DNA from: Chryseobacterium foetidum
Lineage (GTDB): Bacteria; Bacteroidota; Bacteroidia; Flavobacteriales; Weeksellaceae
DNA length: 64,000 nucleotides
Reading direction: 5' to 3'
Assembly: GCF_025457425.1 (NCBI RefSeq)
Contig: NZ_JAMXIA010000001.1
Coordinates: 3,348,001-3,412,000, forward strand
In this document: positions 26,011 through 56,497 of the stretch, piece by piece
How positions within the stretch are numbered: the stretch's first letter is position 1
Layout: each line of letters begins with the position of its first letter
Program-made: the position numbers and the translations under genes
The notes under the pieces: model-generated
Told to the model about the DNA's origin: nothing
Databases searched by the model: none
The model's input: the letters and a program-made list of their open reading frames with translations, nothing else

Positions 26011-26168
26011 GTTTTTGTATTTTTTATTAATTGTTGATTTTAATCGATTTTTGTTGTAATTTTGTATCGTACTTGTACCGCGTGTTATTTGGGTAGTATG
26101 TGCGTCTTATGCGCCTTAAATATAAAAAAAACTCAAAAAACGGAAAATGTTCAGGATGTTATTTCAGA

Positions 26169-26738
26169 ATGGGATTTAGTAAATTGAAAATACCTAGGGT
26201 GTGTGAGCAGTGTTCCAAACCCTTTGAAGCAAAAACAGTTATGACTCGTTTTTGCTCTTTATCTTGTAATAATAAAGCATTAAAAGAGAAGAAAAAACTT
26301 GAAAAAGAAAAAGTAGAAAGAGACACTCTTTTACAAAAATATAAAAACAAGATTGCCGAAGTTCAGAATCGGGAATTTATTTCAGTTGCAGAAGCGACTG
26401 TTATGTTTGGACTTTCCAAAGATACTGTGCACAGATGTATAAAACGAGGAATCATTACTGGAATTAATCTAGGCTCAAGATTGACTCGTGTGAAGCGATC
26501 AGATCTGGAAAATTTATTTTCAGCAGTTGAAATACAGGAAGAAAAGGAAGTAATAATTGAGAAACCCAATTTTGAAGTTGGTAATTGTTACACAATTTCC
26601 GAAATTAGTTCGAAATTCCACGCTGATCCAGGAACTGTAACAAACCTAATTAAAAGAAACAAAATTCCGACAAAGAAAGTTGGAAGTTTCGTGTATGTTC
26701 CTAAAAATTTAATTGATAAAATTTTTGACGGAAAATGA
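26169..26738 (+). CDS. Zinc-finger and helix-turn-helix protein, probable excision/integration factor
   Basis: The 189-residue protein has an N-terminal zinc-finger-like pair (CEQCSKPF and CSLSCNNK, residues about 11-37), a charged coiled-coil-like stretch, and two excisionase/MerR-like helix-turn-helix units (ISVAEATVMFGLSKDTVHRC at about 71-90 and YTISEISSKF near 140). The frame is open from a GTG at 26100, but the start MGFSKLKIPRVCE places the zinc finger at the N-terminus as in similar proteins. It overlaps the integrase gene by four bases. Position and domains suggest a directionality or repressor role in integration (inference). Confidence 0.75.
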   Translation: MGFSKLKIPRVCEQCSKPFEAKTVMTRFCSLSCNNKALKEKKKLEKEKVERDTLLQKYKNKIAEVQNREFISVAEATVMFGLSKDTVHRCIKRGIITGINLGSRLTRVKRSDLENLFSAVEIQEEKEVIIEKPNFEVGNCYTISEISSKFHADPGTVTNLIKRNKIPTKKVGSFVYVPKNLIDKIFDGK

Positions 26739-27976
26739 AAGAGTTATTAAAAACCAAAGTTACCGTACGATTGCGAAAATCCGAATTCCGAAAAGAATGG
26801 TTTATTTATTTGGAAAGTTATCCTGTGATGATTCCTGGTAAAGATAAAGTTCAGAGAATCCGGGAATATTTGAACCGAAGCGTCACAACCGTAGATTTTG
26901 ATAAGAAAAGACCTGCAAGAACAACCCAAGAATCCGTTTCATTTAAACCTAAAAGAGATGACAATGGTATTATCGTTTGCAAAAGCGAAAATGATCGGGA
27001 AACAATGTTCTATGCAGATTCTATGCGTAAATTACGTCAGAGAGAATATGATAATATTGAACTTTACAGCGAACTCGATAAAATTCAAGTAGAACAAAAA
27101 GAAAAATCGCAGGAAAATTTTGTGAGATATTTTGATTTGTTGGTTAATAAACGACATAAGAATAATTCCGAATCTATTCAAATAAATTGGTATCGCTCAA
27201 TAGAATTTCTAAAAGATTTTGGAGGCGAAAAAATTATGTTTTCGCAGATCACCACAAAATTCTGTGAAAACTTCAAATCATATTTGTTGACTGCAAAAAG
27301 TGGTAGCAATAAGAAGGAAATTATTTCTCAAAATACGGCTTCAACTTATTTTTCTGTATTCAAAGCTGCATTAAAACAATCTTTTATTGACGGATATTTT
27401 ACGACTGACATTTCTGCTAAAATTAAAGCGATTCCGCACGAGGAATCAAGACGAGAATATTTAACACTTGATGAACTTAATACTTTAGTTAAAACGCCTT
27501 GCGAACTTGAAGTTCTTAAACGTGCAGCACTTTTTTCAGCTTTAACAGGTCTGCGACATTCCGATATTCAGAAACTAACGTGGAACGAGATAAGTATTGA
27601 AAACGATCAGGCAAAAATAAATTTCACACAAAAAAAGACAAAAGGTGTAGAATATATGCCTGTGTCTAAACAAGCATTACAACTTTGTGGTGAAGTAGGT
27701 CTTCCAACTGATTTAATTTTTAAAAATCTGACTGATCCTGCTTGGATTTCCCGACCACTCAAGAAGTGGATTGAAAGTGCTGGAATTACTAAAAAAATAA
27801 CTTTTCATAATTTCAGACACACTTTTGCAACACTTCAACTTTCGAGTGGAACTGATATTTACACAGTTAGTAAAATGCTTGGTCATACGAACGTAAAAAC
27901 TACGCAGGTTTATGCAAAGGTTGTTGATGAAAAGAAAAATAAAGCTTCTACAGCTATTCAATTAAAAAACTTATAA
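26735..27976 (+). CDS. Tyrosine-type site-specific integrase
   Basis: The 413-residue integrase has an N-terminal SAM-like core-binding domain (about 125-225) and a C-terminal catalytic domain. All main catalytic positions are present: R274 in TGLRHSD, H358 and R361 in HNFRHTF, H384 in LGHTN and the nucleophile Y393 in QVYAKV. It resembles integrases of Bacteroidota integrative elements. Its place beside the attL site in dnaK implies that it recognises the dnaK 3' end. It is translationally coupled to the upstream helix-turn-helix gene (ATGA overlap). Confidence 0.93.
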   Translation: MKELLKTKVTVRLRKSEFRKEWFIYLESYPVMIPGKDKVQRIREYLNRSVTTVDFDKKRPARTTQESVSFKPKRDDNGIIVCKSENDRETMFYADSMRKLRQREYDNIELYSELDKIQVEQKEKSQENFVRYFDLLVNKRHKNNSESIQINWYRSIEFLKDFGGEKIMFSQITTKFCENFKSYLLTAKSGSNKKEIISQNTASTYFSVFKAALKQSFIDGYFTTDISAKIKAIPHEESRREYLTLDELNTLVKTPCELEVLKRAALFSALTGLRHSDIQKLTWNEISIENDQAKINFTQKKTKGVEYMPVSKQALQLCGEVGLPTDLIFKNLTDPAWISRPLKKWIESAGITKKITFHNFRHTFATLQLSSGTDIYTVSKMLGHTNVKTTQVYAKVVDEKKNKASTAIQLKNL

Positions 27977-27977
27977 A

Positions 27978-28769
27978 ATGCACTTTAAATATTTCGAATA
28001 TATTGTCATCTACCTTTCCGTTTTAGTAGTATGTGTAATAGGGGGAGCATTAGCAAGAATTTCTTTTCTTGGAAAAGGTGGTGACGAATATACCGCAAAT
28101 ATTGTATTTTGGTCAATCACAGCATTAAGTATATTATTTTATGCACTTATCATTTTATTTCTCGATGGTATAATTGTCTTATTCAGAAAGATTTTCCCTA
28201 AAAAAGGCAGTTCCGAAAATTCTACTGAAGATTTGATCCCATCTGAAAATCCTGAGAATGTAGGGGAGAAGCAAAAACAAATAATTGATGAAAATACGCC
28301 AATCTATTTAGTCGAAAATTCGGAGGAAAGTATTGTGAATCAAACTACAGAATCCGTAAATCTGGAATCTATAAGAAAAACTCAACTCCAGCAAAAGCAA
28401 CAGAATGAAAGTGTAAAACTACAAATCGCTCTGGATTATACTCGGAATCAATTTGCATTATATGTAACAGATGAAGATCTAGATGCACTTTGTAATGCCG
28501 TAAGTTTTTACTCAAAAAAAGAAGAGATTCCTAACGGTATTTCTGTCCATACCAAAGAATTATCTAATCTAAACCTTTATCATTTTGGATGGAATATTTG
28601 GAATTATTTTAGACCAATAAAACAGGAAGAAATTTCAAAATTATTAAAAACTGTATTTGTTTCGCTTGATGATGTTGATTTAGATAGTATCAAGTCACAT
28701 TTGAAAGATGAACCTCAAAAAGGTAATATTAAAATTCAAGAAAACTTGGCAGACTACCAAAAAACATAA
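27978..28769 (+). CDS. Membrane protein of unknown function next to the integrase
   Basis: The 263-residue protein has two hydrophobic segments at about 8-28 and 44-72, then a long soluble, glutamine- and glutamate-rich region that is probably cytosolic. It starts one base after the integrase stop, so it is co-transcribed. I do not recognise a family. A role in element maintenance or entry exclusion is possible but has no direct support. A hairpin with a T-run follows. Confidence 0.6.
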   Translation: MHFKYFEYIVIYLSVLVVCVIGGALARISFLGKGGDEYTANIVFWSITALSILFYALIILFLDGIIVLFRKIFPKKGSSENSTEDLIPSENPENVGEKQKQIIDENTPIYLVENSEESIVNQTTESVNLESIRKTQLQQKQQNESVKLQIALDYTRNQFALYVTDEDLDALCNAVSFYSKKEEIPNGISVHTKELSNLNLYHFGWNIWNYFRPIKQEEISKLLKTVFVSLDDVDLDSIKSHLKDEPQKGNIKIQENLADYQKT

Positions 28770-28795
28770 AAAATCACAAAATCAAGTGTATGTTT

Positions 28796-28850
28796 AGTGA
28801 TTCCTCTGTGATTGCGTGTTTATAGCGATCACAGACGAATCACTTTTTTT
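28796..28850 (+). terminator. Hairpin with T-run after the integrase operon
   Basis: The outer arms AGTGATTC / GAATCACT and inner arms TCTGTGAT / ATCACAGA form a long imperfect stem closed by a loop, followed by seven T. It would end the integrase transcript just before the next gene's promoter region. Confidence 0.75.
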
Positions 28851-28881
28851 CTTTGCACCATAACAATCAAAAACAATAGTT

Positions 28882-29259
28882 ATGGATAGCAATGACATTT
28901 CATTTGAAAATCTTCCAAGAGCAGTTGCGCACCTGGTTAGCGAAATAGCCGAAATTAAATTTCTGGTAGAAAGGAAAGAACCTCCGATAATTCCCGTAAA
29001 GAGAATTCCGATTGATATTATAGAAGCTTGCCAAATTATAGGTAAGGCAAAACCTACTGTATATACTCTTGTGCGGAAAAGATTGATTCCTTGTTACAAA
29101 AATGGTAAGAAACTCTACTTTTTTGAAGATGAATTATTGGATTGGATTTCTAAAGGAAAGAAGAAAACCTTACAGGAAATTCAATGTGAAGCGGAAGCCA
29201 GTTTCAGAAAAAATTCAAGGAAGGCAAATGTGGATTCTAACCAAAATCTACAAAGATGA
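28882..29259 (+). CDS. Excisionase-family helix-turn-helix protein
   Basis: The 125-residue protein carries a single MerR/excisionase-like DNA-binding unit at about 40-95 (IDIIEACQIIGKAKPTVYTL, then KNGKKLYFFEDELLDWI). This is the common small helix-turn-helix protein found before the helicase/primase pair in Bacteroidota mobilizable elements. It overlaps the next gene by four bases (ATGA), so the two are coupled. It may control replication or excision. Confidence 0.8.
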   Translation: MDSNDISFENLPRAVAHLVSEIAEIKFLVERKEPPIIPVKRIPIDIIEACQIIGKAKPTVYTLVRKRLIPCYKNGKKLYFFEDELLDWISKGKKKTLQEIQCEAEASFRKNSRKANVDSNQNLQR

Positions 29260-30485
29260 GCCAAAAAATCCCCTACATCCGAGTTGGAACCACCTATTAT
29301 AAAGTGATAGAAAAGCCATTAATTTCTGGCGATAAAACTTCAGTTTTGGTTCGCTGGAATCGAGAAACAATTGTGAGCGATCACGGAAAAAGTTATGTTT
29401 CAAATGTTCCAAAATTTGACGGTTTCTGTTGTATTCCGGAGCATTTAAATTATCAACAAATCGTTCAGGGTTTCTATAATATTTACAATGAAATTCCCTT
29501 TGCTCCTTCATCTGAATCGGAAGATTTAAAAACTAAAATTCAATTTTCTTTGAATTTTGTAGCGCACATTTTCGGTGAACAACTGGAAATGGGTTTGGAT
29601 TATTTAAAAATTCTCTTACAATTTCCTACGCAAATTCTACCGATTTTATGTTTGGTGTCCAAAGAACGGGCTACCGGAAAATCAACATTTATCAAATGGC
29701 TGAGAGAGATTTTCGGATTGAATATGACTTACATCAAAGGCGATTCTTTCGGAAGTCAATTCAACAGCGATTGGGCAGCAATGTTGTTGGTAGCAATCGA
29801 TGAAGTTTTTTTTGATAAAAAAGAAATTACAGAAAGACTCAAATATCTATCTACGACCAATAAAGATAAGTTGGAAGCCAAAGGTAAAGACAGAGAAGAA
29901 ATCGATTTTTTCGCCAAGTTTATTCTTTGTTCCAATAACGAAGAGAATTTTATTCAAATCGATGAAAATGAAATTCGATTTTGGATTCTGAAAATCAATC
30001 CAATCAAAACGGAAAACACTGAATTTTTGAATAACCTGATTTACGAAATCCCTTATTTTCTTCGGTTTTTAATCGAAAGACCATTTTCAACGGAGAAGAA
30101 AACAAGAATGTGGTTTTCCGCCGATGAGATCAGAACAAAGGCACTTCAGAAATTAGTTTTCAAAAACAACAATAAACTCGAATCTAAAATAATAGAATTG
30201 CTTTATGAGTTTTTTGAAAGCAACAATGATGAAGAAATTAATGTCGTTCCGCAAGACTTGCTGAATATGATAAATAGGATGTTTCGCCCAACTTATTGGA
30301 CAAGAAATGATATCCGAAATCTTTTAAAGGAAACTTGGAAATTGAATCCACAAAATAATGGTTTGACCTACATCAGATACGACCTTGATTTTGCAGGAAT
30401 TTTCTATCAAAACAATTCGGTGGGTCGCTATTTCACCATAAAAAAGGATTTTATTCTTAATAAACGTGTTGAAATGTTGAATTGA
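29256..30485 (+). CDS. Primase-helicase-like AAA ATPase of the element
   Basis: The 409-residue protein resembles DUF5906/D5-like helicases. Walker A is KERATGKST at about 137-144 and Walker B is LLVAIDEVF at about 178-185. LCSNNEENF near 230 fits a sensor-1 position, and a winged-helix-like C-terminus follows. It would unwind DNA at the element's origin. The iteron-like cluster starts 34 bases after its stop and a toprim primase follows, so the three make a small replication module. Confidence 0.8.
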   Translation: MSQKIPYIRVGTTYYKVIEKPLISGDKTSVLVRWNRETIVSDHGKSYVSNVPKFDGFCCIPEHLNYQQIVQGFYNIYNEIPFAPSSESEDLKTKIQFSLNFVAHIFGEQLEMGLDYLKILLQFPTQILPILCLVSKERATGKSTFIKWLREIFGLNMTYIKGDSFGSQFNSDWAAMLLVAIDEVFFDKKEITERLKYLSTTNKDKLEAKGKDREEIDFFAKFILCSNNEENFIQIDENEIRFWILKINPIKTENTEFLNNLIYEIPYFLRFLIERPFSTEKKTRMWFSADEIRTKALQKLVFKNNNKLESKIIELLYEFFESNNDEEINVVPQDLLNMINRMFRPTYWTRNDIRNLLKETWKLNPQNNGLTYIRYDLDFAGIFYQNNSVGRYFTIKKDFILNKRVEMLN

Positions 30486-30518
30486 ATGATAATGAATAGA
30501 AAATCAAACACTTTAAAC

Positions 30519-30670
30519 TCAACAAAATCCTCAACAAACTTTTAAACCCAACTTTTTGTTGAATGTTTGTTGAGCGGAAAAACTCTAGTTTGTTGAATTG
30601 TTGAGCTTTTGTTGAGGAATTAAAATCTTATTAATCAATAAGGTATATGCTTTTCTCAACAATTCAACAA
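30519..30670. repeat. Iteron-like cluster of nine TTGTTGA motifs
   Basis: Exact TTGTTGA lies at 30556, 30567, 30590, 30598 and 30609, and its complement TCAACAA at 30519, 30531, 30656 and 30664. Nine copies in 152 bases between the helicase and primase genes suggest an origin of replication or a multi-site operator. Confidence 0.7.
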
Positions 30671-30706
30671 AATATATCTCACCCAAAACACGGAAAATTT
30701 ACAGCT

Positions 30707-31690
30707 ATGAATTGCAAACAATTTAATACAATCCCGTTGGAAGAAGTCCTCCTTTCTCTCGGACACCTTCCAACGAAACAAAATGAAAAAGAAGCTTGGT
30801 ATCTCAACCCTTTTGCCAGCGAATCCCGAGCCTCTTTCAAATTGGATAAAAGAATTAATGCCTGGTATCTTCATTCAGAAGGTGTCGGTGGGAATAACAC
30901 CGACTTTATGAAGAAGTATTTAAATACCTCGGTCAATGAAGTTCTGGATTGGGCGGAAAAACAAAATTTTTCTTCTTTTCATCAGCAACGACAGATTAAA
31001 AAGTCGGAACCAAATTATGCAATTGATGAAATACTGGATCTCCAGAATCCAAATCTGAAACAATATTTACGGGGACGTGGATTAAGTCCTAAAGTCTATG
31101 ATTATATAAGAGAGGTACGATTTACCATCGGAAACAAGAAACTTTACGCCATTGGTTTTGAGAACTTATCTGGCGGTTTTGAATTGCGTAATGCTTTTTA
31201 TAAAGGTTCATTGTTGAAAAAGGATGTTTCCATAATTGATCTCAGCTGCAATGGTCAGAGTAAATCAAATATTCAAGATAGATATGTCAGAGGTGTAGCA
31301 GTTTTTGAAGGTTTTATGGATGCGCTGTCTTTTATCGAATTGCAAAAGTCTTTTGCAGGAGATATCCTTGTGATGAATTCCATTGCTCTTTTAAATAAAT
31401 CGATAGAACACTTAAAAAACTATTCTGATGTCAATCTTTTTCTGGACAACGATAATGCAGGAATTAAATGTAAGTCTGAGATTATAAAATCTTTTCCGGA
31501 AGCAAAAGATCATTCCGGAATATATTCCGACCATAAAGATCTCAACGAATTTTTGATACACATAATCAAGAATGATGTAGCAAATAAGTCAGGAAAGCAC
31601 TCTGAAAAATCTCTAGAGTCGAATAAACTACATGCAAGAAATCAGGAACAGGAAATCAAAAATACAAATGTTTTTAAAAGGAAACGCTGA
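30707..31690 (+). CDS. Toprim-domain DNA primase of the element
   Basis: The 327-residue protein starts with a CHC2-like region without an obvious zinc site (ASFKLDKRINAWYLHSEGVG). A toprim domain follows, with the glutamate in VFEGFMDALSF at about residue 201 and the acidic pair in LFLDNDNAG at about 247-249. The frame extends 60 bases upstream into the repeat cluster, but the MNCKQFNTIP start fits the family and leaves the repeats free. It probably primes replication or transfer of the element. Confidence 0.85.
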   Translation: MNCKQFNTIPLEEVLLSLGHLPTKQNEKEAWYLNPFASESRASFKLDKRINAWYLHSEGVGGNNTDFMKKYLNTSVNEVLDWAEKQNFSSFHQQRQIKKSEPNYAIDEILDLQNPNLKQYLRGRGLSPKVYDYIREVRFTIGNKKLYAIGFENLSGGFELRNAFYKGSLLKKDVSIIDLSCNGQSKSNIQDRYVRGVAVFEGFMDALSFIELQKSFAGDILVMNSIALLNKSIEHLKNYSDVNLFLDNDNAGIKCKSEIIKSFPEAKDHSGIYSDHKDLNEFLIHIIKNDVANKSGKHSEKSLESNKLHARNQEQEIKNTNVFKRKR

Positions 31691-31976
31691 TAATGCGTGC
31701 TGTATGTTTTTACCAACTACCTGCAGAAGTTAGGAGCGCATTCGCAACTTTGAAGGTCGTGCCTCCCAACAAAGTTTCTAATACGCTCTGCGAGGCTTTT
31801 AACCTGAGTAAAATAATATATGGTTGGTTTTATTGACCTGTGTAAAAAAACTCAGGTCATTTTTATCGAAGGTGTGTAAAATAAACACAGGTAAAATGTA
31901 AAGCTGAAAAATATGACTTCATCAAATTTAAAAGCATAAAACTATAAAAGTATAAAACCTTAAAGATGTAAAAGCA
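31691..31976. promoter_or_regulatory. Candidate transfer origin with interleaved palindromes before the relaxase gene
   Basis: Four 8-base half-sites are visible: ACCTGAGT (31802-31809), ACCTGTGT (31836-31843), ACTCAGGT (31850-31857) and ACACAGGT (31885-31892). The first pairs with the third and the second with the fourth, so the two inverted repeats interlock. GACCTG / CAGGTC also makes a local hairpin. The position directly upstream of a MobV relaxase is where oriT usually lies. No gene was seen in the stretch. Confidence 0.5.
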
Positions 31977-33137
31977 ATGAAGACCTCTATTAATTTCAAA
32001 GCAGTTAAATCCGATTCTGAAACTCATAATTTCAGGAAGAAAACTTTCGATTACATCCGCAAAGATCTGACGCCAAAGAATGAATATTGGATGGAACAGA
32101 AGATAGCTGACAGAATTCAAAAAATTGAAGCGTACTGCAAAGAAAAATCCGGAAGAAAATTACAGAAGAATGCAATGCCTGTTCGGGAAGCTGTTGTTGT
32201 TATCAAAGAAAACACAACGATGCTGGAACTTCAAAACTTAGCCGAGAGACTAGAAGAAGAATTGAACATCCGTGTTTTTCAGATCGCTATTCATAAAGAC
32301 GAAGGGCATAACGATAAAGACACTAAAGAATGGAAACCAAATTACCACGCTCATTTGGTAGCTGACTGGCAGGATCTGAAAACAGGGAAAACACTTAAAC
32401 ACCAATCCTTCCATTATTCAAAAATGCAAGATCTGACAGCAGAATGCCTGAATATGGAAAGAGGGATTTCCGGCTCCAGAGGGAGATTGGAAGCCATTGA
32501 GTTTAAGATCCAGCAGAAAGAAGAAGATCTTAAAGTTTTGGAAGAAAGGTATGACACAATGAAATCTGAAATGAGTTCGACAAAATCGGAGGAGCTGGTT
32601 GTAAAGGAAAATGATTTTCTAGGTTTTAAAAAAATTAAGACTGACAAGACCATTGAGAATTATGAAAAAGCATTTCGGACTTACAAAAGCACAATTCTAA
32701 AAAATAAAACCGAACTAGAATCCAAATCAAAACAAATTACTGAGCTCAATACAAAGGTTATTGATTTACAAAAGCAAGTACTTCTATTCAAAAACAAAAA
32801 CGCTGTTCTATTGTCCAACCCAACAGTTTTTGCTTCTGAAAAGAAAAAATATCTCGATTCGGTTATTAATGTTGTTGAGAGGGAAATCAAATTTTCAAGA
32901 TTCAGAAATCCACACTTAGATAGGACAGATAAGCAAAAGCTCATATCGGAAATGGAAAAAATAGCACAGAAAATTTCGCAAGAAAATAAGGTTCCATTTT
33001 CAGCCTTCAATGAGATTTTTAAAGATAATGAGATAACAAATCAGCTTTTCTCTCTGTTACAATTAGGTAATAACACTACAAATTATGAGGCTGAGGATAT
33101 TCCAATTCAAAATAAAAGAAAGAGAAAAAGACTCTAA
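31977..33137 (+). CDS. MobV-type relaxase (Mob/Pre family)
   Basis: The 386-residue protein nicks and binds the transferred DNA strand. The N-terminal relaxase domain has the histidine/acid motif IHKDEGH (H106 to H111) and the metal-binding pair NYHAHLV (H124, H126), as in Mob_Pre proteins. Residues about 165-280 are strongly coiled-coil, followed by a positively charged C-terminus. It is the only transfer gene found, so the element is mobilizable rather than self-transmissible. It faces the Cas12f-like gene across a 300-base gap. Confidence 0.85.
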   Translation: MKTSINFKAVKSDSETHNFRKKTFDYIRKDLTPKNEYWMEQKIADRIQKIEAYCKEKSGRKLQKNAMPVREAVVVIKENTTMLELQNLAERLEEELNIRVFQIAIHKDEGHNDKDTKEWKPNYHAHLVADWQDLKTGKTLKHQSFHYSKMQDLTAECLNMERGISGSRGRLEAIEFKIQQKEEDLKVLEERYDTMKSEMSSTKSEELVVKENDFLGFKKIKTDKTIENYEKAFRTYKSTILKNKTELESKSKQITELNTKVIDLQKQVLLFKNKNAVLLSNPTVFASEKKKYLDSVINVVEREIKFSRFRNPHLDRTDKQKLISEMEKIAQKISQENKVPFSAFNEIFKDNEITNQLFSLLQLGNNTTNYEAEDIPIQNKRKRKRL

Positions 33138-33358
33138 TAACCGCAACGTATTGCAGAGTATTTTCTTTCGATTGATAGCAATTAAGGAAACAAGAATTCA
33201 AGAAAGCAAGGAAGCAACCAATCAAGCGAGCAATCTCGCTAGATTGATTGGTGAAACCTTTTATGGTTTAGGATTCTCCTATTTGCAATACTTTGCTTTT
33301 TTGATTATGCTTTCTTCATTTTTGAAAAAAAAGAAACCCACGCCGTTGTATATACCAG
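33138..33358. repeat. Gap between relaxase and Cas12f-like gene with a strong hairpin
   Basis: The arms at 33217-33230 (ACCAATCAAGCGAG) and 33235-33252 pair with one 4-base bulge around a CAAT loop. No T-run follows on either strand, so a plain terminator is unlikely. The stretch also has a T-rich region that could end the minus-strand transcript. No coding gene is convincing. Confidence 0.6.
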
Positions 33359-33437
33359 AAAAAGTATTCAGTTTCCAGTATTTAGTGAGTGTTCAAAACC
33401 TCACCCTACGGGTTTACAAGCACCCTCATTTTTTTAG
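33359..33437 (-). ncRNA. Candidate guide RNA 3' region downstream of the Cas12f-like gene
   Basis: Directly after the Cas12f-like stop, the minus strand reads into a short hairpin ACCCGTAGGGT (33413-33403) followed by GAGGTTTTGAAC. This resembles the end of TnpB/Cas12f-type guide RNA scaffolds. The next 27 bases (33390-33364) would be the guide, and a run of five T follows. TnpB-type guide RNAs commonly overlap or follow the 3' end of their nuclease gene. This is an alternative to the upstream candidate at 35451-35618; neither can be proven from sequence. Confidence 0.4.
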
Positions 33438-34532
33438 CTATCCGATGATCAATTCGATACCGGCTTTTTCTGCTTTGTATTTTATTTTGGTCTGCAATTC
33501 ATAATAGCTCCAGTTGCGAAGTACAAATTCCTGTTCTTTTGCAATCCCTATTTTGTCTTCCTGATTTTTCAAAATAAGAGTGCCCGCCTGTTGTTGAATG
33601 CAGAAATCAATCAGCTTCCGACTGTAAAGATGAAGATGATGACTGACAAAACGGTTTTCCAGATTCTCTGTTTTGTGCAGTGCCTTCTGTTTCCGTTTAG
33701 ATCCTTGTCCTGAACGGGAATACGCGACTCCGGCTCGAATCCTTTTATTACTGGCCTGAATCGCCAGCCTGCGGTAGAGGAATTCCTCTTTCGAACCAAT
33801 ATTCATTCGCACATTGTTGGCTTTTACCACGATCGGATGTTCCAGAGACAAAGAAGCTTCTGCAATGATTTCGGGTTTTAAACCGTGGTTTTCCTTTTCA
33901 AATTCAAAGACGGCCAGCCAAAAGATCTTACCGTCTTTCAGTTGGACCTGTGAGTTGCACAGCTTGATCTCTTCTCGTAAGAGGCGTCCCAGGACCAAAT
34001 GTTTATCAGAGAAATCTCTGCCTAAGTAAGTTTTGACCGGAATCGCAAACATATTGAAGCTGAACGCTTTTTTTTCAGGATCGTACTTCATTTTGCTGAT
34101 ACATTTGACCGGAAGCGGAATGGGAATGTCTTTTTTAAAGTTCATTAAGGATTTTGATCCCTGCCAATATTCGGCTTTGTTTTTGGAAAAGGTGGACTGA
34201 ATTGTATTGTTTAGGCATCCCAGAATGTCGGTGGGGATTTCTCCCTTGAAACGGTCAAAGACCAGGCGTGCCGTGGTGTTTGTTTTAGAACGGTTGAATA
34301 TTCCCATTTGATCTTTTTTTTCATCAGCCAGCTTGTATTGGATTTCTTCGGTGAGATAAAAGAAATCCTTGATCATCTCTTGTACATAAAGATGGGAAAC
34401 AATCAAATTAGCCGCTCTGAAACAGCGGTTCTGATACCGATAGAGTTTTTCCCACATCAGGCTTTTATCATCGGATGGAACATCAATCACCAGCTGAATT
34501 TTTCGGGTCAGGGTTATCGTAGACTTTTCCAT
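33438..34532 (-). CDS. Nuclease-dead Cas12f/TnpB-like protein linked to a sigma factor
   Basis: I use the ATG at 34532, one base after the sigma factor stop (TGATATG); the frame further upstream lies inside the sigma gene. The 364-residue protein keeps the Cas12f/TnpB backbone: GSKEEFLYRRLAIQ, SGQGSKRKQKAL, NRFVSHHLHLYSRKLIDF and LRNWSYYELQTKIKYKAEKA. The RuvC catalytic positions are lost. The expected VDLG aspartate aligns with S229 in ASLSLEHP, the RuvC-II glutamate with K322 in LILKNQ, and the protein stops right after GIELIIG, so the zinc-finger and RuvC-III aspartate are absent. It should bind a guide RNA and DNA without cutting. Nuclease-dead Cas12f proteins paired with ECF sigma factors have recently been reported to drive RNA-guided transcription in Bacteroidota; this pair fits that class. 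Confidence 0.85.
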   Translation of the reverse strand: MEKSTITLTRKIQLVIDVPSDDKSLMWEKLYRYQNRCFRAANLIVSHLYVQEMIKDFFYLTEEIQYKLADEKKDQMGIFNRSKTNTTARLVFDRFKGEIPTDILGCLNNTIQSTFSKNKAEYWQGSKSLMNFKKDIPIPLPVKCISKMKYDPEKKAFSFNMFAIPVKTYLGRDFSDKHLVLGRLLREEIKLCNSQVQLKDGKIFWLAVFEFEKENHGLKPEIIAEASLSLEHPIVVKANNVRMNIGSKEEFLYRRLAIQASNKRIRAGVAYSRSGQGSKRKQKALHKTENLENRFVSHHLHLYSRKLIDFCIQQQAGTLILKNQEDKIGIAKEQEFVLRNWSYYELQTKIKYKAEKAGIELIIG

Positions 34533-34533
34533 A

Positions 34534-35349
34534 TCAAACCGGTATTTTAGAGGTGTTTTGATTTTGCAGATGCTGATAGGCGTACAGAAATTCCCGATGG
34601 ACTTCCTTTTCAGGTAGTTTGAGTTCTTTTGCAATTACCGCAAATGAAGATTTCTGTTCAAACCGTCTTTTGATAATCTCGAGCTGCTGACTGCTGAGTT
34701 TTTCTGACTGCTCTTCTTTATCAACATTTTTTTCGTGTGGTTTCTCAAAAGTTGTCACCTTAAGAATATTCCTAAGCTCATCTATGGCTTTACTCACCTC
34801 CGTGCTAATGCCTGTCACACTGCTTCCCATAGCTTCTGCGATGGGTTTATACTGAAAGCCATATTCCAGGCAGAGTTCTATCAGGTGTTTTCTTTTGGGG
34901 TTTAAAACGGGTAAGACCTTTGTGATTTCATCGAATTTTTTTTGATCGGATTCTTGGCTATGTAAATAATCTTTATCTTTCAAAGGATCGTAACCTGCAA
35001 GATAATCTTGATAGTTCTCAAAACTGTCAAGAGAAGCCATTAAGCGGCTGAATTTATTCCGGGGAGCAGTAACATACGCTATACAATCCCTTTTCATCAC
35101 AAACCGTAAAAAGCCTGTAACATGATCAGGTGTCTCAATGGTGTCGCGGTGCAGCCACAATTTTAGGAAGGTATCCTGAACAATAGTGTTCACTACAAAA
35201 TCATCCTTAAGCACCTGCCATCCAACCCAAAAAAGAAGTCTTTTGTAACGCAGATGAATATGTTCCAGAGCGGTCGGATTACCTTTTTTCAGTAGTTCGT
35301 ATAACTGAAGATTGCTCAATTTCCGAGGCAAAGAGTCTGTTCTTTTCAT
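34534..35349 (-). CDS. ECF-type sigma factor with extra C-terminal helix-turn-helix, partner of the Cas12f-like protein
   Basis: The 271-residue protein has sigma region 2 at about 24-92 (ALEHIHLRYKRLLFW, VQDTFLKLWLHRD) and sigma region 4 at about 140-195 (LNPKRKHLIELCLEYG, YKPIAEAMGSSV). A linker and a second helix-turn-helix-like segment follow at about 218-262 (SQQLEIIKRRFEQK, FAVIAKELKLPEKEV) that ordinary ECF factors lack. Its stop is one base from the Cas12f-like start, so the two are translationally coupled. A Bacteroidota promoter and a long structured leader precede it. By analogy with dCas12f-sigma systems it would recruit RNA polymerase to sites chosen by the guide RNA (inference). 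The extra domain may contact the Cas12f-like partner. Confidence 0.85.
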   Translation of the reverse strand: MKRTDSLPRKLSNLQLYELLKKGNPTALEHIHLRYKRLLFWVGWQVLKDDFVVNTIVQDTFLKLWLHRDTIETPDHVTGFLRFVMKRDCIAYVTAPRNKFSRLMASLDSFENYQDYLAGYDPLKDKDYLHSQESDQKKFDEITKVLPVLNPKRKHLIELCLEYGFQYKPIAEAMGSSVTGISTEVSKAIDELRNILKVTTFEKPHEKNVDKEEQSEKLSSQQLEIIKRRFEQKSSFAVIAKELKLPEKEVHREFLYAYQHLQNQNTSKIPV

Positions 35350-35450
35350 AAGCAGCGTATTTAGCTAAATTATTGCTGGAAGGAACTGCTTAGATAAATA
35401 AGATGAATCTCTGCCTCAAAATGCTAACTCACTACATATATTACCCAAAT

Positions 35451-35618
35451 GAAAAAGCGTGGAACTCAACTTATTGACTAGAGGTACTGGTATACCCGTG
35501 TACGATAAGAGAGCCCACGCCGCGGTCGTGAGCTAATTTACTTATCTTCTCGTACACATAAAAATTACCAGTTTTCTAGTCGAGAATCTAAGCAATAGCT
35601 TCGATTATTATTTTTGAA
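35451..35618 (-). ncRNA. Candidate guide RNA: long structured leader before the sigma/Cas12f-like operon
   Basis: Bases 35476-35581 fold into one rod. The base is a 16-bp stem with one bulge (GACTAGA / TCTAGTC plus ACTGGTA / TACCAGT). Above it come a 7-bp stem GTGTACG / CGTACAC, then ATAAG / CTTAT, and a top hairpin CACG / CGTG. A small hairpin (AAGC / GCTT at 35590-35601) precedes it on the minus strand. A promoter just upstream would start transcription near 35618 toward the sigma gene. After the rod come 19 bases (35475-35457, AATAAGTTGAGTTCCACGC) that could be the guide, then five T. The RNA is non-coding by eye. The role as guide RNA is inference. Confidence 0.55.
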
Positions 35619-35624
35619 GTATTG

Positions 35625-35657
35625 CAAAGTTACCTTTATTATAACTTATTTAGCAAA
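35625..35657 (-). promoter_or_regulatory. Bacteroidota-type promoter for the structured RNA and sigma/Cas12f-like operon
   Basis: On the minus strand a TTTG box (35657-35654) is followed after 21 bases by TAACTTTG (35632-35625), a perfect fit to the -7 consensus TAnnTTTG. The expected start is about 7 bases further, near 35618. It lies divergent to the XRE regulator gene at 35744. Confidence 0.7.
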
Positions 35658-35743: not shown

Positions 35744-35968
35744 ATGGATAAAATAGAATTTAGAATAGCATTTGGTAAAAGAATTGAGATGTTCAGAAAA
35801 AAACTGAATTTGAGTTATAGAGAGTTGGCTCAAAAATGCGATGTAGATCATAGTAATATTAGTAAAATAGAAAAAGGGGAAGTTGATCTTAGAATCTCTA
35901 CTATTCAAGAATTAGCAAAAGGACTAGATGTGCATCCATTGGAACTATTTGATTTCAAATTAAAGTAA
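35744..35968 (+). CDS. XRE-family transcriptional regulator
   Basis: The 74-residue protein is essentially one helix-turn-helix domain of the Cro/C1 type (KRIEMFRKKLNLSYRELAQK, then HSNISKIEKGEVDL). The frame is open 39 bases upstream, but the ATG giving MDKIEFRIAFGKR fits the domain. It is divergent from the sigma/Cas12f-like operon with about 395 bases between them, so it could regulate that operon or itself. Similar small regulators also serve as control proteins of restriction systems, and one such system lies 3 kb downstream. Which target is real cannot be decided from sequence. Confidence 0.8.
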   Translation: MDKIEFRIAFGKRIEMFRKKLNLSYRELAQKCDVDHSNISKIEKGEVDLRISTIQELAKGLDVHPLELFDFKLK

Positions 35969-52809: not shown

Positions 52810-53391
52810 ATGCCATTATATGATGAAGCCTACCTCAGAAATTTGAGTAGAAATCAACCTCTTTTTGAGAGCGATAAAATGTTTAGTGAAAGTAAAAAGA
52901 AAACTTCTTTCGATATATTTCTTTCTCACAGTTTTTTAGATAAGGAAGCTGTTTATGGATTATATTATGAACTCACAAACTTGGGTTTTTCCGTATATGT
53001 AGATTGGATTGTTGATTCTGACTTGGATCGGACAAATGTAACAAAGGAATCTGCAAAATTAATTCAGAAACGTTTAAGGTCTAGCAAAACATTATTGTTA
53101 GCAATTTCTCAAAATTCTGATTTGTCCAAATGGATACCATGGGAATTAGGCTATGTTGATGGACATACACAATTATGCGCTTTAATTCCGGTTGCAAAAA
53201 GTGGTGATAGTAGATATACTTTCACTAGGAGAGAATACTTGCTTTTGTATCCTTTTATAAAAAAAATTCCCGATAATTTTGGAATTAATAAATTATGGGT
53301 TGCCGATAGTAATACGAAATATATCGTATTTGAAGAATGGCTTAAAAATGAAAATCTATTTGAAAGAGATGTTAACATCGCAGAATTATAG
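52810..53391 (+). CDS. TIR-domain protein, first gene of the TIR-caspase operon
   Basis: The 193-residue protein is almost entirely one TIR domain (about 31-165): FDIFLSHSFLDKE at the start, VYVDWIVDSD in the middle and WIPWELGYVDG with the probable catalytic glutamate E112. TIR enzymes of defence systems turn NAD+ into a signalling nucleotide when phage is sensed. The gene is followed after 11 bases by a caspase-like protease, the pairing known from TIR-caspase (type IV Thoeris) systems, where the TIR product activates the protease. The trigger is unknown. Confidence 0.85.
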   Translation: MPLYDEAYLRNLSRNQPLFESDKMFSESKKKTSFDIFLSHSFLDKEAVYGLYYELTNLGFSVYVDWIVDSDLDRTNVTKESAKLIQKRLRSSKTLLLAISQNSDLSKWIPWELGYVDGHTQLCALIPVAKSGDSRYTFTRREYLLLYPFIKKIPDNFGINKLWVADSNTKYIVFEEWLKNENLFERDVNIAEL

Positions 53392-53402
53392 AAATTATAT
53401 TT

Positions 53403-54353
53403 ATGAGAAAAGCTTTAATAGTAGGAATAGATGATTATCCAAATGCACCACTAAATAGCTGTGTAAAGGATGCTATTAGTATGGAAAATATTCTAGAAAA
53501 AAATGGGGATGGATCTCCAAATTTTCATGTAAAACTATTAATAGACAAGCCAGAAGCTATCAATAAAAAAATATTAAGAAGCAATATTGAAAAACTATTT
53601 GAAGGCAAATCTGATATAGCTCTATTATATTTTTCAGGACATGGATTAGTAAAGTCTACGGGAGGGTATATTGTAACGTCGGATTTTGAGAAATATGATG
53701 AAGGAATTTCAATGAATGATATTCTGACACTTGCTAATAAATCTGAAGCGATTTACAAAATTATTATTCTTGATTGCTGTTATTCTGGAAAATTTGGTAA
53801 TATAGAAATAGGAGACTCTTCGGCAGCTTACTTAGGTGATGGGCTAACAGTTTTAACTGCCTGTAGTGATAAGGAAACTGCAATATCTATCAATGGCTCA
53901 AGTGTCTTTACGTCTTTACTTTTGGATGGTTTACAAGGTGGTGCTGCAGATTTAAGAGGAAATGTTACACCTGGACATCTTTACGCTTATGTTGATGAAG
54001 CATTGGGAGCTTGGGATCAGCGACCTATTTTCAAGACGAATGTTTCGCAATTTACCTCTTTAAGACAAATAACTCCCAGAGTATCCAAAGAAACATTGCG
54101 AATGATTACAACATATTTTATTCAAGCTGAAGATGAATTTAATTTGGATCCGAGTTTTGAATTTACAGAAGAATCTGCAGTTACAGAAAATGTTCATATC
54201 TTTAAAGATCTTCAAAAATTTCAATCAGTAGGTTTGGTTGTCCCTGTAGATGAAGAATACATGTACTATGCAGCCATAAATAGCAAGTCTTGCAGGCTTA
54301 CTGCTTTAGGATATCAATATTGGAGATTAGTTAAAGAAAATAAATTATCTTAG
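53403..54353 (+). CDS. Caspase-like protease with C-terminal sensor-like domain, copy 1
   Basis: The 316-residue protein has a p20-like caspase domain (about 1-220). It starts KALIVGIDDYP and has the catalytic histidine H80 in YFSGHG and cysteine C126 in ILDCCYSG. The last 90 residues (LDPSFEFTEES, LQKFQSVGLVVPV, LTALGYQYWRLV) form a separate winged-helix-like domain shared with the second caspase gene. In TIR-caspase defence the C-terminal part is expected to bind the TIR-made signal (inference). The gene lies 11 bases after the TIR gene. Confidence 0.85.
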   Translation: MRKALIVGIDDYPNAPLNSCVKDAISMENILEKNGDGSPNFHVKLLIDKPEAINKKILRSNIEKLFEGKSDIALLYFSGHGLVKSTGGYIVTSDFEKYDEGISMNDILTLANKSEAIYKIIILDCCYSGKFGNIEIGDSSAAYLGDGLTVLTACSDKETAISINGSSVFTSLLLDGLQGGAADLRGNVTPGHLYAYVDEALGAWDQRPIFKTNVSQFTSLRQITPRVSKETLRMITTYFIQAEDEFNLDPSFEFTEESAVTENVHIFKDLQKFQSVGLVVPVDEEYMYYAAINSKSCRLTALGYQYWRLVKENKLS

Positions 54354-54356
54354 ATT

Positions 54357-55133
54357 ATGATGGATTTTTACGAAGAAGAATTGTTTTTTGATGGAGATAT
54401 TGCTAAAGAAAAAGGTATTTTCGATCCTGATAAAACTACTGCAGAAGAAGAACCCGAATTGTTAGGACTAAAAACTAGAATAGGTAACAGACCCATTGTT
54501 TATAATCTACAACAGCTATTTGATTTGGCAAAAAAGAAATTGCCTCCAGAGTTGGAAGTTCAGTTTCAAACGCATAATATATATTTAATTACTCATGCGG
54601 TTGGGATAATGAGAACAAAAGGAAGTGCTAAAGTTGTAGAATTACAGTATAATGCTGAAATTACTAGTTCAATGGAAGCACAAACGATAGATTTATTTCC
54701 TAAAACTAAATTTATTGATCGATTTAAAATAGAAACCGGACTATCAGGAACAATCATGGCAGCAGGAAATTTTTCGGCAGAAGTTCCTGACGAACTAAAA
54801 AATTCTTTATCAGGAACTAGCTTGACATTAGGTGGTGAATTGAATTTAGAGCTTTCAACAAATACAAAGTTTGTTGGAAAGATTAATTATAGTATCAAAT
54901 TGCCTGTAGTACAATCTTCAGGAATTGCTTCTAATAAATGTAGTTGGGTATTAAAACCTGATGAAAACCCTTTACTAGGTGATCAACTTCTTATTCAAAC
55001 TATTGCAGTTCCCAAAGAAGTAAAAACTTTAAGCTACTCTGTAAAAGGACTTGTAAAAATAAGTAAAGGATGGCTTCGTAAGGTAGAAGAAAAAGAAACA
55101 ACAACACAAATCATAAATATAAAACTAACATAA
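54357..55133 (+). CDS. Unrecognised beta-rich protein between the two TIR-caspase pairs
   Basis: This 258-residue protein has an acidic N-terminal 40 residues, a short helical region (YNLQQLFDLAKKKLPPELEV) and then about 170 residues of alternating strands (VELQYNAEITSSM, GLSGTIMAAGNF, LGGELNLELSTN). I do not recognise a family. It has no signal peptide and no evident membrane segment. It starts three bases after the caspase gene and ends three before the second TIR gene, so it belongs to the same operon. It could be a protease substrate, an effector held inactive, or a scaffold; none is supported directly. Confidence 0.6.
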   Translation: MMDFYEEELFFDGDIAKEKGIFDPDKTTAEEEPELLGLKTRIGNRPIVYNLQQLFDLAKKKLPPELEVQFQTHNIYLITHAVGIMRTKGSAKVVELQYNAEITSSMEAQTIDLFPKTKFIDRFKIETGLSGTIMAAGNFSAEVPDELKNSLSGTSLTLGGELNLELSTNTKFVGKINYSIKLPVVQSSGIASNKCSWVLKPDENPLLGDQLLIQTIAVPKEVKTLSYSVKGLVKISKGWLRKVEEKETTTQIINIKLT

Positions 55134-55136
55134 TAT

Positions 55137-55547
55137 ATGGCAAATCCAAGAGCTTTTATAAGTTTCGATTTTGATAATAATGAAATGCAAAAGATGTATT
55201 TTATTGGACAATCAAAAAATTCCCGCACTCCATTTAATATTGAGGATTGGTCTTCAAAAACTGCATTGGCGCAATATAGTTGGCAGGACATAATAGAAGG
55301 TAAAATGAAAAAGTGTAATCTGATGATTGTTTTGGTAGGCAGAAGTATGAGTACTGCCACGGGAGTAAATAAGGAAATCCAGATGGCGCTTAAAAATAAT
55401 GTTCCTTTTTTTGGTGTCTATGTAGATGGCGCAAGCTCTTCATCAACTTTACCAATTGGATTACCTAGAAATAGAGTTATTCCATGGACTTGGGATGGAA
55501 TTGCTTCAGCAATTACACAAATGTTAGGTGAAGGAAAAAATCGCTAA
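55137..55547 (+). CDS. ThsB-like TIR protein (DUF1863 type)
   Basis: The 136-residue protein has the Thoeris ThsB-like TIR pattern: AFISFDFDNNEMQK at the N-terminus, FNIEDWSSK with the following SWQDII, NLMIVLVGRSMSTATGVNKE with a likely catalytic E80, and VPFFGVYVDGA. This family differs from the first TIR gene of the operon in both length and motif details. It would make an NAD-derived signal for the caspase gene that follows after two bases. Confidence 0.85.
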   Translation: MANPRAFISFDFDNNEMQKMYFIGQSKNSRTPFNIEDWSSKTALAQYSWQDIIEGKMKKCNLMIVLVGRSMSTATGVNKEIQMALKNNVPFFGVYVDGASSSSTLPIGLPRNRVIPWTWDGIASAITQMLGEGKNR

Positions 55548-55549
55548 AT

Positions 55550-56497
55550 ATGAGAGGAGCACTTATTGTAGGTGTTAACGAGTATAGTTTTGGAGAATTG
55601 CCTGGTTGTGTTAAAGACGCTCAAGACTTAGCTAAAGTTTTACATAGAGATGATTTCAATAAGAGAAATTTTGATATAGATTTGATGATATCTGATCAAG
55701 AACTAATAACTCAGAAGTCATTGAGAAAGCGAATTGAGACACTTTTTTCTACAAATAGTGAGGTTGCACTTTTTTACTTTTCAGGTCATGGAACTGAAAA
55801 TAATCTTGGGGGATATATTGTAACACAAGATGCAGAGAAGTACAATGAAGGAATTTCAGTTTACGAGATTTTACAAATTGCAAATGAATCAAATGCGAGA
55901 GATAAAATTATAATATTAGATTGTTGTAACAGTGGTCATATGGGAAATCTCCCACTTGTCAAAAATGACATGGCTTTGCTAAGTAAAGGTGTATCAATAA
56001 TTACAGCAACAAATGCTAAACAAAATTCTTATAATACCTCTTCTGGTAGTCTATTTACATCACTTCTTATACAATCATTACAAGGTGGTGCAGCAGATAT
56101 TTTAGGTAAAGTTTCGATTCCAGGAGTATTTTCTTATCTTGATCAAGCTCTAGGTTTTTTTCATATTCGTCCATTGTTCAAATCTCATGTAGAGTCATTA
56201 GTTTCTTTGAGAGATTGTAAGCCAGCTTTAGAGTTAGATATTCTTCAAAAAATAACTGAATATTTTCACACTGATGATTTTTTATTTCCCTTAGATCCTG
56301 AATTTGAGCCTACGTTTGATAATCATGTTATAGAGAAAGTTAAAGTATTAGAACACTTACAAAAATTTAGAGACGCCAGATTGTTGTTACCTATAGGAGA
56401 AAATCATATGTACGATGCCGTAATGCAATCAAAAAAATGTGGTTTAACAGCACACGGAAAATATTATTGGTTATTAGTTAAAAATGGATTAATATGA
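55550..56497 (+). CDS. Caspase-like protease with C-terminal sensor-like domain, copy 2
   Basis: The 315-residue protein is a clear paralogue of the first caspase. ALIVGVNEYS opens it, H80 lies in YFSGHG and C126 in ILDCCNSG, at exactly the same positions. The C-terminal domain is also shared (LDPEFEPTFDN, LQKFRDARLLLPI, LTAHGKYYWLLV). The pair TIR-caspase thus occurs twice in one operon, with different TIR types but the same protease design. It overlaps the next gene by four bases. Confidence 0.85.
   Translation: MRGALIVGVNEYSFGELPGCVKDAQDLAKVLHRDDFNKRNFDIDLMISDQELITQKSLRKRIETLFSTNSEVALFYFSGHGTENNLGGYIVTQDAEKYNEGISVYEILQIANESNARDKIIILDCCNSGHMGNLPLVKNDMALLSKGVSIITATNAKQNSYNTSSGSLFTSLLIQSLQGGAADILGKVSIPGVFSYLDQALGFFHIRPLFKSHVESLVSLRDCKPALELDILQKITEYFHTDDFLFPLDPEFEPTFDNHVIEKVKVLEHLQKFRDARLLLPIGENHMYDAVMQSKKCGLTAHGKYYWLLVKNGLI

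Follow-up and report, generated by a model that had tools for sequence, protein, structure and literature searches.

A mobile-element-borne sigma-dCas12f pair of Chryseobacterium foetidum probably directs RNA-guided transcription at a structured RNA element shared by its own operon and a susCD operon

RNA-guided transcription by pairs of a sigma factor and a nuclease-deactivated Cas12f (dCas12f) is a very young field, in which the natural targets of the guides are a central question. This question is raised by a locus of Chryseobacterium foetidum in which an extracytoplasmic function (ECF) sigma factor gene is followed by a dcas12f gene, within a 64,000-nucleotide (nt) stretch of contig NZ_JAMXIA010000001.1 (positions 3,348,001 to 3,412,000, hereafter the window). 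The original prediction, made from the letters of the window, recognized the protein pair and proposed an RNA-guided transcription system, leaving unnoticed the guide RNA (gRNA), its targets and a structured RNA element ahead of the sigma gene. Taking these components together, we consider it probable that the locus is a mobile-element-borne sigma-dCas12f system that directs RNA-guided transcription of the operons sharing this element, its own included.

The protein pair belongs to a known, recently described kind. The sigma factor (271 aa; 34534..35349, minus strand) contains a sigma2 domain (residues about 34-93), a sigma4 domain (about 140-189) and a second sigma4-like helix-turn-helix (HTH; about 217-252), and scored 72 bits against TIGR02937 and 83 bits against TIGR02985, confirming that it is an ECF factor. 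Its gene is separated by one base, at the junction TGA-T-ATG, from that of dCas12f (364 aa counted from the ATG at 34532; 33438..34532, minus strand), exactly as had been described. The motifs quoted for a Cas12f/TnpB-like protein are present in dCas12f, which matched the family models weakly to moderately (guided_TnpB, 60 bits; PADLOC Cas12f, 169 bits) and aligned across its full length with PDB 9N9C, annotated as 'Nuclease-deactivated Cas12f' (533.6 bits, 65% identity). The sigma factor matched chain C ('RpoE') of PDB 9N9Q (261.9 bits, 48% identity). The 9N9C sequence is the exact product of locus L057 from Allomuricauda (Flagellimonas) taeanensis, which also includes the beginning of the RpoE sequence matched here. 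Membership in the sigma-dCas12f systems is thus strongly supported by full-length homology of both proteins to the F. taeanensis pair (PDB 9N9C, 9N9M, 9N9O and 9N9Q), with which the window system also has in common the dead RuvC site, the truncation, the gene order and a gRNA scaffold 3′ of dcas12f. An AlphaFold2 model of dCas12f was poor (predicted local distance difference test score 51) and was set aside; no fold search was built on it, and none was needed given a solved homologue.

One scan of GTDB genomes returned 79 relatives of the locus (n = 80 with the window locus), mainly from Chryseobacterium and other Weeksellaceae and also from marine Flavobacteriia and Echinicola; searches of plasmid, phage and viral collections found no dCas12f copies. 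By translation, dcas12f is intact in 74 loci, at identities down to about 59% and with conserved length, and its frame is broken in six of the 80. Aligned to the active Cas12f chains 9NZO and 9NZR, with which it shares a homologous core (about 131 bits), window dCas12f carries S227 in place of the RuvC-I aspartate and K322 in place of the RuvC-II glutamate, and its C-terminus lies ~90 residues short of the chain ends, so that the protein lacks both RuvC-III and the zinc finger. The catalytic residues are therefore lost, as anticipated from K322, the early end and S229; the first two of these hold, whereas the aspartate aligns with S227, and S229 aligns with a glycine two residues on. Among the 74 intact relatives, 70 have S at position 227 (the others Y, T, C or F) and 55 have K at position 322, where L, I, M or T occurs in most of the remaining ones. 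By contrast, active Cas12f proteins (9NZO and 9NZR; AsCas12f1 and Un1Cas12f1) keep both the catalytic residues and the C-terminal region. The intact RuvC D-E-D of active CRISPR-Cas12f (type V-F) is absent from the window protein, and no CRISPR array was seen at the window.

The gRNA implied by an RNA-guided system lies at 33319..33428 on the minus strand, starting ~10 nt past the dCas12f stop, where it scored 88.8 bits with covariance model R2; as the window gRNA and some other R2 hits are members of the training alignment, these scores are not independent, while the co-occurrence of gRNA and dCas12f is. R2 detected a gRNA in 80/80 dCas12f loci, in all eight tested dCas12f-bearing relatives and in none of five tested genomes lacking dCas12f, and its scan of the C. 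foetidum genome found this single copy and no extra gRNAs in trans. The gRNA consists of a scaffold (GAGGGTGCTTG...GTATATACAAC), the guide and a T-run. The conserved scaffold behind the dcas12f stop (GAGGGTGCTTGTACACCCGTAGGGTGAGGT...ACACTCACTAAATGC..GCATATACAAC) is common to L057 and precedes a segment that is variable among distant loci; the window guide, GGCGTGGGTTTCTTTTTTTT (33325..33344, minus strand), begins exactly where guides differ among loci. Measured against its predicted targets, it has an 8-nt perfect seed, GGCGUGGG, followed by wobble and mismatch positions, and passes into the terminator-like T-run. Of the Weeksellaceae loci, 60 of 61 retain this guide type, among them loci whose own upstream element is gone; of the 19 more distant loci, 8 do so. 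Several other guides occur in some marine loci. Loci L024 and L043 each carry three tandem gRNAs, only the last of which has an element-matching guide, and no targets were found for the remaining guides of these two loci; an orphan gRNA copy is present in genome G011.

Where, then, does the guide point? The seed recurs upstream of the sigma gene, with wobble pairs extending the match, and a scan of the whole 4-Mb genome with a wobble-compatible site pattern, GGCGTGGGYYYNYYY (G-U allowed), matched three places only, namely the gRNA itself, 35507-35521 on the minus strand and C2:111226-111240 on the plus strand. The first predicted target, GGCGTGGGCTCTCTT (35507..35521), lies 158-172 bp upstream of the sigma ATG; the second (G000:C2:111226-111240), on a 220-kb second replicon, lies upstream of an operon encoding a SusC-type TonB-dependent receptor (PF07715), SusD (PF14322, PF07980) and an S9 peptidase. 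Each has the same direction as the genes behind it, and target and downstream genes are co-oriented at the other copies examined. The earlier suggestion that the system might control genes after transfer thereby becomes concrete, the predicted regulon, directly testable, being its own operon and one susCD-peptidase operon on another replicon.

Both non-self sites occupy the same position, the 3′ arm of the terminal hairpin, within a three-way-junction-like structured RNA element of about 200-223 nt. The window copy (35380..35602, core 35458-35602, minus strand) scored 173.7 bits with model R1, of which it is a training member, and folds better than 200 of 200 shuffles (z −4.2); the second copy spans C2:111147-111292. 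RNAalifold assigned 38 pairs to the element, 14 of them with both sides changed, with pairing in 98.7% of alignment cells as against about 30-38% when the partner was slid, and with 88 double-change cells as against 27 in shuffles. Of 80 distinct elements, 50 are closed by an exact 7-nt helix, either GCTTAGA/TCTAAGC or GCTTTGA/TCAAAGC (0.85 expected). A promoter of the Bacteroidota TAnnTTTG type lies within 70 nt upstream of 78/80 distinct elements (5.7 expected), mostly at a fixed spacing, usually 28-33 nt; in the window it is TAACTTTG (35625..35632, minus strand). A DNA cruciform in place of an RNA is unlikely, given the frequent G-U pairs in the conserved helices and the fixed spacing of the promoter. 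Rfam 15 gave no match to the element in the window and chance-level matches only at other copies. Identity with 6S-Flavo RNA (RF01685) was ruled out, the sole 6S-Flavo-like match of the genome lying elsewhere (C1:3755089) and below the cut-off.

The guide fits this family well beyond the two sites in C. foetidum. Across nine dCas12f genomes, its own and eight others, it fits every strong element copy with the 8-nt seed perfect or at one wobble, and the seed is intact at element copies in trans. Marine Flavobacteriia have the guide GCGTGGGYTCTCTTAT, which fits element copies at 0-1 mismatch; these copies lie upstream of SusC, of sigma factors or of the guide's own operon. The F. taeanensis locus carries the same element upstream of its sigma gene (R1 138 bits), but its guide, TTGTGGGATATACG, does not match that element, in contrast to the nearly fixed, element-matching Weeksellaceae guide. 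Overall, 60 of the 80 loci have the element upstream of their sigma gene. Copies were found in 35 of 59 relatives, at 1 to 7 per genome, most of the 35 being without dCas12f; its conservation is therefore not due to dCas12f, and the element is an RNA gene or leader in its own right, whose DNA would serve the guide as an address.

A divergent HTH regulator usually stands on one side of the element, and on the other a gene for either SusC or a small unnamed protein. In the window, the divergent gene encodes an XRE/HTH_3 protein (35744..35968, plus strand) that likely regulates the element promoter, and divergent HTH-type genes stand at most other copies examined. The small protein, which is conserved and about 180-190 aa long (...GLQLMETYFQFNDL...), is often encoded first behind the element, for example at L123:2059-2640 and L135:2083-2616, and had no Pfam match. 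A weak third R1 match in the C. foetidum genome (L119, G000:C1:1655244-1655401, 37 bits), which lacks GGCGTGGG, is possibly a diverged paralogue of the element RNA. In Flavivirga, a transposase interrupts two element copies (L172, reverse, at 1331, and L177, at 1330) at the identical place, just before the 3′ arm of the hairpin, with GCGTGGGCTCTCTTAT undisturbed; this transposase, which is IS110-like by eye only, may use the element as a site of insertion.

How might the pair act on such an address? By homology to the complex deposited with both proteins, the window pair would initiate transcription under RNA guidance. dCas12f would load the gRNA encoded just behind its own gene, the seed would pair with the DNA of the element, and the attached sigma factor would bring RNA polymerase to start downstream of the R-loop, with no need for a normal promoter; in this family the start is reportedly set by its distance from the R-loop. 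Activation at the element upstream of sigma-dcas12f would be autoregulatory, and the element on the second replicon would place the SusC-SusD-S9-peptidase operon under the same guide. A start inside the element would yield a transcript without the 5′ half of the RNA, possibly a way past any control that the element RNA exerts.

Several observations weigh against this RNA-guided initiation at the element, the target-adjacent motif (TAM) register and the wobble-rich guide being among its weakest points. The window guide is short, with 8 perfect pairs followed by U-G wobbles and a mismatch at position 12. The TAM of these systems is said to be a 5′ G, yet with pairing taken to begin at the first G that follows ACAAC, the target is preceded by C or A: at most sites C or A stands before GGCGTGGG, and G stands before GCGTGGG, so that the motif fits only if pairing begins one base later. 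The susC start codon is 517 bp away from the C2 target, no upstream element is detectable in 20/80 loci, the element is found in 26 genomes without dCas12f, and the match between guide and element partly reflects conservation of the element itself. A short seed is nevertheless plausible, because the nuclease-dead TnpB transcription factors named TldR work with guides down to 6 nt (PMC13418256). TldR resembles the window system in its nuclease-dead TnpB/Cas12-type protein and in the sufficiency of a very short guide or seed; unlike it, TldR represses, has no sigma partner and comes from another family and other hosts.

That comparison suggests a different role for dCas12f-gRNA, mainly as a repressor or roadblock that, bound within the RNA gene, would halt transcription from the TAACTTTG promoter. 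The target does lie ~100 bp downstream of this conserved promoter, and nuclease-dead TnpB homologues repress in that way (PMC13418256); but a sigma gene one base away, the match of the pair to a deposited complex that contains both of them (9N9Q) and the single orientation of target and downstream genes at the copies examined make repression improbable as the main function. We give slightly less credence still to the idea that the match is an evolutionary relic, with a guide that was once copied out of the element and true targets that are reached through other gRNAs or at other sites. Elements are plentiful where dCas12f is absent, some marine loci carry other guides, and the solved F. taeanensis guide has no second site at ≤1 mismatch in 14 nt; a relic would, however, hardly be kept almost throughout the Weeksellaceae, even where the upstream element is lost, the seed is unbroken at trans copies, and the C. 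foetidum genome has no trans gRNA.

The remaining two explanations appear far less likely. Were the sigma factor running its own regulon with dCas12f as a decaying passenger, broken dcas12f frames such as those in 6/80 loci would be understandable, but the divergence and conserved length of the 74 intact copies, a gRNA retained in every locus and the co-solved structure of sigma factor and dCas12f make this very doubtful. Least credible is that the guide pairs with the element RNA, as antisense or sponge. The guide seed does find a complement of about 7-8 nt in the 5′ arm of the terminal hairpin, yet the pairing with DNA is longer, a stable hairpin would have to be opened, and binding to double-stranded DNA is known for this family.

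The Weeksellaceae sigma-dCas12f may be a fixed-address regulator, a broader reading on which our confidence is evenly divided: a near-invariant short guide would read a DNA address inside an undescribed, covarying RNA-gene family, all element-bearing operons together with the regulator would form one RNA-guided regulon, and the mobile element would deliver the reader into genomes where the addresses are already present. Whether or not dCas12f is present, many related genomes have members of this target RNA family in front of outer-membrane uptake operons, which raises the question whether RNA-guided initiation replaces, bypasses or modulates an RNA-controlled leader. We found no earlier description of a near-fixed guide matching a structured RNA-gene family, the primary sigma-dCas12f paper lying outside the literature searched.

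The predicted mobile setting of the pair holds, and distinguishes it, as cargo of an integrative element, from the F. taeanensis system. The backbone of this element, probably mobilizable (26100..33137, plus strand), lies to the left of the pair, beside dnaK, and comprises genes for an excisionase (26100), a tyrosine integrase (26735), a MAD1-like HTH protein (28882), a DUF5906 protein (29256), a Toprim primase (30647) and a mobilization-like protein (31977). The last had no Pfam or NCBIfam relaxase match, so it can be called only a putative relaxase. Homologues of the mobility genes occur ≤10 kb from dCas12f in many relatives. To the right of the pair lie a SIR2 protein gene and a type I restriction system accompanied by GmrSD-type genes, as well as two TIR (ThsB-like) and two caspase-domain genes at 52810-56494 that are akin to a TIR-caspase Thoeris-type defence cluster.
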